A stretch of DNA of 43,769 nucleotides from Candidatus Gastranaerophilales bacterium (GTDB lineage: Bacteria > Cyanobacteriota > Vampirovibrionia > Gastranaerophilales > Gastranaerophilaceae), in NCBI GenBank assembly GCA_944323875.1, contig CALUUH010000016.1, positions 1-43,769 of the forward strand, written 5' to 3'. Below, one piece after another: positions 10,805 through 14,245 of the stretch. How positions within the stretch are numbered: position 1 is the stretch's first letter; the number at the start of each line of letters is the position of its first letter. Below the pieces are notes generated by a model. That model did not search any database. It was not told where the DNA came from and saw only the letters and a program-made list of their open reading frames with translations. The position numbers and the translations under genes are program-made.

Positions 10805-11626
10805 ATGAAAAAGAATAATTTTAAAAAAGCCTTTACTCTGGCAGAAATTGTTGTAACAATTATTGTTCTGGGTATCGTAGTGGCCGTAACAATGAAAATT
10901 ACGACAACAAAAATTACACGGGTTAACAAATATAATTATTATGCTGCCTACACCGTCCTTTCAGACCTTGCAGCGGAATTAACCTATGAGAGCGATGACG
11001 GCACAATACCGCTCAGCGGCCTGTGTTCAATATTCGAAGAACAATTGAATTTGTCCAGTGAAAATGTTGTCGTAAACAATGTTGAGCGAACTCCAAGCTG
11101 TTCTATCGGTCATTCAATAAATTCAACAACTGATTTTACTGCAATTGTGCCAAACCTTGTTGCGCGTAACGGTATTCGTTTTTATAATTTGAGTTCTATA
11201 TCATCCCCGATTTCACAGCTTAACGGTGCTACAGGAAATGACTTAACAGGATACACAATATATGTGGATCTGGACGGTCAGCGTGGAAAAGGCGAATTGT
11301 GGAATGATGTTTTCCCGTTTTATTTAACTATTTCCGGCAAGGTAATACCTGCATATCCGACAACAACAGCAACGGCCGGCGGAAACAGTAAAGATTCTAT
11401 GCTTTTCAGCGTACGTTATGATGTATTTTCAACAGAAGGCGGCATTGATAAACGTGAAGAACACTGGCTTGTTAAAAGTGCATCATTTAAGGAAGCGGCC
11501 TGCAAATCAGGTTATGTAAAATCAGTTGTATATTGCAACGGATATACTATTGATACCAATTGCGCGCAGGACGATTCCGATTGCATTCTCGTTCCTATCA
11601 GACCTATTAAATATTTATGGAAGTAG
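10805..11626 (+). CDS. Type IV pilin-like / pseudopilin, second copy
   Basis: A 273-residue protein with a basic leader (MKKNNFKKA), then FTLAEIVVTIIVLGIVVAVT, the methylated, cleaved prepilin helix; E13 is the conserved Glu5 of the mature form. The globular part includes YTIYVDLDGQRGKGELWNDV, resembling the D-x-N-G...DVF segment of the 2.0-kb pseudopilin, and a Cys-rich tail (CKSGYVKSVVYCNG...CAQDDSDC). It sits in a transcript with the glycosyltransferase and transketolase genes (11-nt gap) and precedes the YhcH fusion by 7 nt. Function in a pilus or secretion pseudopilus is inferred from family membership. Confidence 0.83.
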   Translation: MKKNNFKKAFTLAEIVVTIIVLGIVVAVTMKITTTKITRVNKYNYYAAYTVLSDLAAELTYESDDGTIPLSGLCSIFEEQLNLSSENVVVNNVERTPSCSIGHSINSTTDFTAIVPNLVARNGIRFYNLSSISSPISQLNGATGNDLTGYTIYVDLDGQRGKGELWNDVFPFYLTISGKVIPAYPTTTATAGGNSKDSMLFSVRYDVFSTEGGIDKREEHWLVKSASFKEAACKSGYVKSVVYCNGYTIDTNCAQDDSDCILVPIRPIKYLWK

Positions 11627-11633
11627 TAATATT

Positions 11634-12584
11634 ATGATATATGACAAAATAGAAAATATAAGTAAGTACCCTCAAATTTCTGATAAAATAGCAGAGTTTG
11701 TTACTTCTTTAGATGAAGAAATAACATTAGGCAGACATACTCTGGATAATGATAATTATGCCAATGTAGAGGAATATGCGACTAAATATCCACAAGATTG
11801 CCGGCTGGAGGCTCACAAACAATATGTTGATATTCAAATCCTTTTGCGCGGTCAAGAAGAACTTGACTTTACCTCTGTTGACGGACTTGATATCAGTGAA
11901 CCGTATGATGAGACGCGCGATATAATGTTTTTCAAGACACCTGAGAGAAGATTAAACAGTATCATTCTTGAAAAAGGCTATTTTGCTTTATTATATCCTG
12001 ATGAAGCGCACCAGCCGCAGATGAATTATGGTACAGAGCAGCAAAAAGTGAAAAAAGTTGTTGTAAAGATAAAATATCCGCAAGATGCCGCTCCGTTTAA
12101 AAGGGTTACAAAGAAAAAAGATATTGAATACCTGTCAAACCTCGGGGATAAGATCTGGAGAGAACATTATATTGATATAAATTCTATAGACTGTATTGAG
12201 TATATGTTGAAAAAGTTTCAATCAGTCGAGGCAATAACAAATCAGATAGAAAAAGAAAATTACGAATACTATTTTATAATGGCGGAAAATAATAAAATAG
12301 CCGGCTATGTAGCTATTCAGCCACATAAAGAGAATTTGTTTTTGTCAAAATTATATATAGATATCCCGTTTCGAGGCTGTTCTCTCGGACGTAAGGCATT
12401 TGATTTTGTCGTGAAAAAGGCTGTAGAAAAGGGATTACCAAAAATTAGTTTAACTGTGAATAAAAGGAATTATAATACAATAGATATATATAAACATCTT
12501 GGCTTCAGGATAAAAGAGGCTGTAGTAACAGATATCGGCAGCGGTTATGTAATGGATGATTATATGATGGAATATCATTTATAG
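11634..12584 (+). CDS. YhcH/YjgK/YiaL-GNAT fusion protein
   Basis: A 316-residue protein of two parts. Residues 1-150 match the YhcH/YjgK/YiaL (DUF386, EbgC-like) cupin family: LEAHKQYVDIQILLRGQEEL, and the late LYPDEAHQPQMNYG with metal-type histidines. Some members are linked to sialic acid or beta-galactoside use, possibly as sugar anomerases. Residues from about 155 to the end look like a GNAT acetyltransferase: AGYVAIQPH, LSKLYIDIPFRGCSLGRKAF (acyl-CoA loop) and LTVNKRNYNTIDIYKHLGF. The open frame extends upstream into the pseudopilin gene, but the ATG at 11634 gives the full cupin. The fusion suggests acetylation of an amino sugar, which is inference. Confidence 0.82.
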   Translation: MIYDKIENISKYPQISDKIAEFVTSLDEEITLGRHTLDNDNYANVEEYATKYPQDCRLEAHKQYVDIQILLRGQEELDFTSVDGLDISEPYDETRDIMFFKTPERRLNSIILEKGYFALLYPDEAHQPQMNYGTEQQKVKKVVVKIKYPQDAAPFKRVTKKKDIEYLSNLGDKIWREHYIDINSIDCIEYMLKKFQSVEAITNQIEKENYEYYFIMAENNKIAGYVAIQPHKENLFLSKLYIDIPFRGCSLGRKAFDFVVKKAVEKGLPKISLTVNKRNYNTIDIYKHLGFRIKEAVVTDIGSGYVMDDYMMEYHL

Positions 12585-12675: not shown

Positions 12676-12704
12676 TTGCGGTTTAGTGGATTTTATGCTA
12701 TAAT
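12676..12704 (+). promoter_or_regulatory. Very strong promoter for the structured RNA
   Basis: TTGCGG (12676-12681), exactly 17 bp, then consensus TATAAT (12699-12704). The start is predicted near 12711, at the base of the RNA's closing stem. Confidence 0.8.
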
Positions 12705-12710
12705 TGTAGT

Positions 12711-12931
12711 AGAGGGGCGTATACCTTGGGAGACCGACAGCGCCGGAGAGGCGGCAGAGTACAAAGCCCCGAAAGTGAACAGCGACACTCTGTACAAAGC
12801 AAATGAACTCTTTAGGCAAGGTCTACCGAGACCCCCAAAAGGATAGTAACTTATCCCTGAACGCCCGAAAAAAGTGAATATCAGTTTTGGTGTACACCCC
12901 TTGACGAGTGTTATTCCCCACACCACTCTTT
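12711..12931 (+). ncRNA. Unidentified structured RNA, about 190-220 nt
   Basis: The predicted transcript starts at the foot of a long closing stem: 12712-12725 (GAGGGGCGUAUACC) pairs with 12889-12902 (GGUGUACACCCCUU) with one mismatch. Inside are several local hairpins: CGCC-GGAGA-GGCG (near 12752-12764), CAGAGU...ACUCUG (near 12766-12802), GGUCU-ACCG-AGACC (near 12821-12834) and GGAUA-GUAACU-UAUCC (12841-12856). GAGUG/CACUC (12906-12928) followed by UUU may end it. The signatures I know for RNase P, tmRNA, SRP RNA and common riboswitches are absent, and the branched fold is unlike rod-like 6S RNA. It could be a stable RNA or a long leader of the glycosidase gene 46 nt downstream. Confidence 0.7.
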
Positions 12932-12976
12932 AATCAAAAAGGTATCCGGTTACTTTTTTAATCTACAGGTGACGTT

Positions 12977-14245
12977 ATGGATACTATGTTTTCTGTGCCA
13001 AAGTATGAGGAATTTCGTCTTATCGGTATTATTACCGGGGTTACTATACTTGCAATGCTCTGTTCGTTCCCCGGAGTATCAATCTATGCAAGCGATACCG
13101 CCTATATCGCTAAAAAATCCGCTCCGGCTATCAACATAGATGCTCAAGGGCTTAAAGAAAAAATTTTTCAGGAAGTTTCTCCTGAATTGAAGCAAAAGGA
13201 ATTTGATGAAAACATCAGGAAAAAATATCCTAATGCTGTAATCTATGATGTTGCAAATGGCGTAAAACACATTAAACTTACTAAATACTATTCAGGCCGG
13301 CCGGTCAGAGTTAATGTTGTAGAAATAAACAGGTCTCTTGCTGGCAATATGATTTTGAAACCTGCACTCTCCTCCTCTGAAAATCTTAAAAGCAGACGGA
13401 CAATTTCAACCATCGCAAAAAATAATAACGCTATTGTTGCACTTAACGGAACGTATTTTAAGCCGCAAACCGGTGTCCCGCTCGGCACTTTGATGATTGA
13501 TGAAAAACTTTATACAGGGCCGATATATGACAGGGTTGCACTCGGTATATTTGATGACGGATATGATGTTGCGCGTGTTCAGTTGAATGCCTCTATCAAG
13601 TCACGCAATGCAGAAGTCAAAATTGATAATATAAATCAGCCGCGCACACTTTCAACGCACGTAATCGCATATTCCACTGACTGGGGAAGCACCTCCCCTG
13701 TTTCACCGAAATACGGCACTCAGCTTGCAATAGACAAAGAGGGCAATATTATCGGCGCATCCGCAAATCCTTTAAAAATTCCGCATGGCGGTTATGTTAT
13801 TGTCGGACCAAAGTCCAGACTTCATGCATTCTGGGGTGTGAAAAATGTTAAAATTAAAATATCTACTACACCTGAATGGAAAAATGTACGCCATATAATA
13901 AGCGGCGGGCCGTATTTAGTCAGGGACGGTGAAGTTTTTGTTGATATGACAGCACAAAAGCTTGCCTCTATCGGCGGACGTAACCCGCGCAGCGCAATTG
14001 GTTACACATCTGAAAATAATCTTATTCTGGTTGCTGTTGACGGACGCGAAGGAAGCTCTATTGGCATGACATTAATGGAGCTTGCGAATTTTATGAAGGC
14101 AGCCGGTTGTATCGGAGCAATAAATTTGGACGGCGGCGGTTCTACAGTTATGTATGTAAACGGTCAGGTTGTAAATAAACCGCAGGTTAAAGGCGGAATA
14201 CCGCTTTCTAACGCGATAGTTCTTTCTCTTACTGATGAAGCATAA
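12977..14245 (+). CDS. Phosphodiester glycosidase family protein (NAGPA domain), membrane-anchored
   Basis: A 422-residue protein with an N-terminal transmembrane anchor or uncleaved signal (about residues 15-36, RLIGIITGVTILAMLCSFPG), placing the rest outside the membrane. The catalytic domain has family signatures: AIVALNGTYF, HIISGGPYLVRDGEV, GGRNPRSAIGYTSENNLILV, VDGREGSSIGMTL and INLDGGGSTVMYVNG (LDGGGST from 384). Relatives include human uncovering enzyme and bacterial exopolysaccharide proteins that cleave sugar-phosphodiester bonds, so a role in cell-wall glycopolymer processing is likely. AGGTGA precedes the ATG. It lies directly downstream of the structured RNA and may be its mRNA. 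Confidence 0.9.
   Translation: MDTMFSVPKYEEFRLIGIITGVTILAMLCSFPGVSIYASDTAYIAKKSAPAINIDAQGLKEKIFQEVSPELKQKEFDENIRKKYPNAVIYDVANGVKHIKLTKYYSGRPVRVNVVEINRSLAGNMILKPALSSSENLKSRRTISTIAKNNNAIVALNGTYFKPQTGVPLGTLMIDEKLYTGPIYDRVALGIFDDGYDVARVQLNASIKSRNAEVKIDNINQPRTLSTHVIAYSTDWGSTSPVSPKYGTQLAIDKEGNIIGASANPLKIPHGGYVIVGPKSRLHAFWGVKNVKIKISTTPEWKNVRHIISGGPYLVRDGEVFVDMTAQKLASIGGRNPRSAIGYTSENNLILVAVDGREGSSIGMTLMELANFMKAAGCIGAINLDGGGSTVMYVNGQVVNKPQVKGGIPLSNAIVLSLTDEA

Follow-up and report, generated by a model that had tools for sequence, protein, structure and literature searches.

In translational pseudoknot riboswitches a hairpin is followed by an A-rich linker and then by a strand able to pair with the translation start as well, and cis-acting leaders controlling translation are, as a kind, well known. 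The leader described here precedes a gene encoding an NAGPA phosphodiester glycosidase in a member of the Gastranaerophilales, and we consider it likely, from the conservation and predicted folding of its sequence, that it is a leader of this kind, which would control translation by sequestering the start site of this one gene. The family that it represents appears undescribed. The analysed window of 43,769 nucleotides is an entire contig of the 1.94-Mb genome (features in Table 1). Upstream of the leader, an open reading frame at 11526-12584 carries both a YhcH/YjgK/YiaL domain and a GNAT acetyltransferase domain, an apparent fusion. The original prediction of a structured, non-coding, promoter-driven RNA belonging to no known family was correct: a search of the region against Rfam 15 gave no match at the gathering threshold (only chance matches at E up to 10), the promoter is conserved and covarying pairs are present. 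An Rfam search with 18 divergent homologous loci also returned no family, and no report of structured RNAs or of such a leader in Gastranaerophilales was found in the papers searched. The proposed RNA, however, makes up the 5' half of the leader that precedes NAGPA, a cis-acting part of its mRNA and not a free-standing abundant RNA, and the end originally placed at 12931 splits the conserved element in half.

Table 1. Features of the NAGPA leader and its surroundings (positions in the window).
Feature	Position	Strand	Basis or remark
Operator-like motif TTTAATTTTGTAA	12645..12657	+	Upstream of the promoter, outside the RNA; motif in 93 of 150 copies
Promoter TTGCGG, 17 nt, TATAAT, then GTAGTAG	12676..12704	+	Sequence; block recurs in orthologs
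P1 5' strand, variable 5' hairpin	12712..12725	+	Pairs with 12889-12902; both strands change together from genus to genus
P1 interior with local hairpins, unconserved	12726..12888	+	Genome comparison
P1 3' strand	12889..12902	+	Pairs with 12712-12725
P2 hairpin GAGUG-UUAUUCCCCACAC-CACUC, element core	12906..12928	+	Inner 4 pairs invariant
A-rich linker UUUAAUCAAAAA and invariant G	12929..12941	+	A-run and GG invariant
Anti-start strand GUAUCC	12942..12947	+	Pairs with 12979-12984; 95 of 96 distinct rows fully paired
Anti-Shine-Dalgarno strand GUUACU	12949..12954	+	Pairs with GGUGAC 12968-12973 in the MFE fold
Shine-Dalgarno AGGUGAC	12967..12973	+	Sequence
Start codon and codons 2-3, AUGGAUAC	12977..12984	+	Paired with the leader
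NAGPA phosphodiester glycosidase gene, N-terminal hydrophobic segment	12977..14245	+	PF09992, E 2.2e-37; presumed regulated gene

The promoter had been described as near-consensus. Both boxes (-35 at 12676-12681, -10 at 12699-12704) and the 17-nt spacer are present, but this wording is too strong, since only 3 of the 6 positions of the -35 box agree with the consensus, which is also why a promoter scan did not report it. A conserved block of TTGAAG or TTGCGG, 17 nt, TANAAT and GTAGTAG recurs upstream of orthologs both with and without the leader, which supports transcription from this promoter; judged from its position, the transcript would start at about 12711. Depending on the copy, promoter and P2 lie between a few and about 250 nt apart. 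At the sites homologous to the operator-like motif, 93 of 150 copies carry TTTAGTTTTGTAA, often as TTTACACTATTTAGTTTTGTAAA, at 41-43 or 52-53 nt from the -10 box, two spacings that lie one helical turn apart. This motif is probably a transcription-factor site for this one promoter; in a search for a regulon, matches with one mismatch were not commoner than with the reversed control.

The long closing stem, P1, that had been proposed at the 5' end does occur, with 13 of its 14 positions paired (including two G-U pairs) and one C-A mismatch, and the minimum free energy fold recovers it together with the local hairpins that it encloses. The region is also GC-rich as claimed: 12712-12902 has 51% GC vs 37% for the window, which places it at the 99.7th percentile. 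Thermodynamic stability was considered as evidence for structure and set aside, the z-scores being only -1.9 for 12700-12931 and -0.5 for the whole leader. A search for 12726-12872 in 229 genomes of the family gave only chance-level pieces, apart from its own short 3' edge in one congener, so that the local hairpins are species-specific. The stem itself varies in sequence with complementary partners in many genera, with a mean pairing score of 16.1 vs 12.5 when partners were swapped, and scores above the swapped-partner control in 107 of 130 copies. It is apparently missing in a few copies (L016, L075, L105 and L106), and what is conserved of P1 is no more than a 5' hairpin that varies and is at times absent. 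At another locus (L232), the leader upstream of NAGPA has a P1-like hairpin and no P2, and is possibly an intermediate or reduced form.

What is conserved lies mostly downstream of P1 and consists, in this order, of P2, the A-rich linker, AAAAAGGUAUCC (12936-12947), the Shine-Dalgarno sequence and the start of the coding sequence. We collected 159 distinct copies of this element from 28 of the 41 genera of the family Gastranaerophilaceae, as a rule one per genome. At E up to 1, a covariance model of the element matched 143 of the 239 genomes of the family, a handful of the weakest matches being spurious; outside the family it gave nothing convincing (one match at E 0.38). By blastn, 24 of 99 relatives had matches, almost all of which fell in the promoter region and the 3' part of the query. 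A pattern scan of GTDB genomes returned more than 100 stretches, of which the informatively named ones belong to this group, bar two, and the named carriers are Candidatus Gastranaerophilales or Melainabacteria from gut and rumen. The two exceptions (L150 and L185) are contigs labelled Muribaculaceae and Clostridiaceae, probably from mislabelled or contaminated bins. No phage carriers of the element were found in IMG/VR.

Within P2, the inner four pairs never vary and therefore provide no evidence from covariation. Pair 5 is G-C or A-U across the copies, and pair 6 is A-U, G-C, U-A or C-G, with six switches from one paired state to another along the gene tree; it is T-T or C-T in some clades and is unformed in the genome studied here (C12905, U12929). 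The loop reads UUA-N(1-5)-CCCC followed by a variable part of 2 to about 90 nt. The P2 loops of some genera contain inserts of approximately 15 to 90 nt, several beginning with UUACCUCAAGG, and the base of the hairpin is retained; copies with such extra inserts are L080, L084, L087, L089, L090-L093, L095, L097 and L098. A second copy of P2 was not found elsewhere in the scanned genome. A hammerhead-like CUGAUGAG preceding P2 was also considered and dropped, being limited to some genera and without a GAAA partner. The A-run of the linker is invariant except for an A to C change at one position in one genus. Neither the A-run nor the first G of GGUAUCC belongs to the helix at the start site, yet both are invariant, so they must have another function. 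Two leads for it are recognition by a protein and a contact with the P2 loop through its invariant CC, and loop inserts of up to about 90 nt are compatible with either.

Conservation extends to the translation start. All 156 copies with a readable start (out of the 159) begin with ATG[GA]ATAC, and the orthologous proteins downstream of the leader share Met-Asp/Asn-Thr and diverge in sequence thereafter. Orthologs lacking the leader, identified by protein search and with start sites assigned by distance from the promoter, start instead with ATGAAC, ATGTAC, ATGATT, ATGGAC and so on; about 1 in 14 has ATGAATAC and none has ATGGATAC. GGATAC is thus tied to the presence of the leader and not to the protein. 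The partner strand follows: in one genus (g25), a compensatory change has produced GUAUUC with GAAUAC, and one member retains the G-U intermediate GTATTC:GGATAC, although a true double change occurs in this clade only. In 40 diverse rows of fixed length around the anchors, picked for diversity and hence biased toward variable rows, 98.1% of cells are paired (31-54% in slid controls) and the covariation score is 0.177 vs 0.097 in shuffles (reached in 0 of 500); a test on independent pairs, of which there are too few, did not reach significance. Folding predictions give the helix between leader and start a probability above 0.5 for 116 of the 121 copies. For the scanned genome the stretch from P2 to the start gives a probability of only 0.17, whereas the minimum free energy fold of the full leader forms the helix. 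The Shine-Dalgarno sequence has an unpaired probability of 0.15 vs 0.30 with shuffled spacers (Wilcoxon p 3e-12) and is more buried than in the shuffles in 91 of 115 copies; as the copies are related, the shuffle and Wilcoxon figures overstate independence. Covariance analysis upstream of the phosphodiester glycosidase, which had been suggested as a check, revealed covarying pairs, including the outer pairs of P2 and GUAUUC:GAAUAC, and a conserved structure 5' of the gene extends over its Shine-Dalgarno sequence and start codon, with which it is presumably co-transcribed.

These observations bear on what kind of RNA this is. The promoter, the long 5'-proximal stem and the high GC content that had suggested a stand-alone, abundant structured RNA, comparable to 6S, RNase P, tmRNA or SRP RNA, are real. 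However, no intrinsic terminator was found between the leader and NAGPA, no Rfam family matches, conservation runs on through the Shine-Dalgarno sequence into codons 2 and 3, and the interior of the closing stem is unconserved, without relatives in the 229 family genomes beyond the scanned genome itself and the short 3' edge in one congener; this part of the original prediction did not hold, and we regard such an RNA as highly improbable. Equally, a short open frame from the GTG at 12908 (GTG TTA TTC CCC ...) to a TAA within the window might suggest a leader peptide encoded upstream of the gene by P2 and the linker. The P2 loop accepts insertions (1, 2 and as many as about 90 nt) that disrupt this frame, and the stem is kept by complementary changes, which leaves a leader peptide barely conceivable. 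Without a terminator, translational rather than transcriptional control is likely.

In the translational leader that we favour, transcription would begin at about 12711, and P1, free in sequence and length, would adjoin the invariant hairpin P2. GGUAUCC downstream of P2 would pair with GGAUAC, which runs from the G of the start codon through codons 2-3, and a further, inner helix is predicted over the Shine-Dalgarno sequence in many species. To judge from conservation and predicted folds, this start-site helix would bar initiation by the ribosome in the OFF state, and sequestration of the start site would be expected to lower translation. The putative sensor comprises the invariant AAAAAGG and hairpin P2 with its UUA..CCCC loop; a ligand, protein or small RNA bound there may keep AAAAAGGUAU off the start codon and so turn translation ON, or the reverse. 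More speculatively, the CC of the loop and the GG after the A-rich linker might pair in a small H-type pseudoknot, in competition with the start-site helix.

Two readings of the sensor within this same leader can be weighed. A dedicated RNA-binding protein, or a small RNA, acting at P2 and the A-rich linker is a tentative possibility, and would control how this one mRNA is translated or how stable it is. In the P2 stem the letters themselves, and not just their pairing, are invariant, which suits direct recognition in trans, as does the single gene per genome; yet there is no candidate protein or small RNA, and NAGPA itself, with its N-terminal hydrophobic segment, is probably exported, so that simple autoregulation is unlikely. 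The sensor could also represent a new, family-restricted class of small-molecule riboswitch, which we think rather doubtful, with a pseudoknot pocket of H-type in the manner of preQ1-I formed by P2, the UUA..CCCC loop and AAAAAGG, and with the helix from the start codon to codon 3 as the competing expression platform. The order of hairpin, A-rich linker and a strand also pairing with the translation start is the layout of a translational pseudoknot riboswitch, and the loop CC and the post-linker GG are invariant. Against it, the leader is confined to one bacterial family and to one gene per genome, the latter being unusual for a metabolite riboswitch, and the part of the loop after CCCC differs in length between copies (2 to about 90 nt). 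Moreover, although P2 and conserved loop letters are present, the tertiary contact (P2 loop with GGUAU) finds no support from covariation, which is not visible because the GG, like the whole of GGUAU, never varies. If this reading were true, the riboswitch sensor would dictate the first amino acids of the protein (Met-Asp-Thr).

Whatever the sensor, the element occurs in over half of the sampled genomes of the family, with one clear target gene and an explicit fold, and leads to the testable prediction that pairing with the leader is what fixes codons 2 and 3 of NAGPA. As the enzyme is a surface glycosidase, such control would also suggest that these gut bacteria remodel their cell surface in a regulated manner.

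In comparison with known systems, the leader resembles the preQ1-I and SAM-II pseudoknot riboswitches in its short hairpin, A-rich linker and strand overlapping the translation start of one mRNA. It differs from these in lacking an Rfam match and a known ligand, in its longer linker and freely expandable loop, and in pairing with codons 2-3 of its own gene. With the translational operators of ribosomal proteins and coat proteins it shares an invariant hairpin near the start codon of a single mRNA and a sequestered initiation region, but here the gene encodes a surface glycosidase and not an RNA-binding protein, and no binding protein has been assigned. P1, a stem at the very 5' end with variable sequence and interior, is reminiscent of the stabilising 5' hairpins of the ompA type; unlike these it is only accessory and absent in some species, and the conserved element sits downstream of it.
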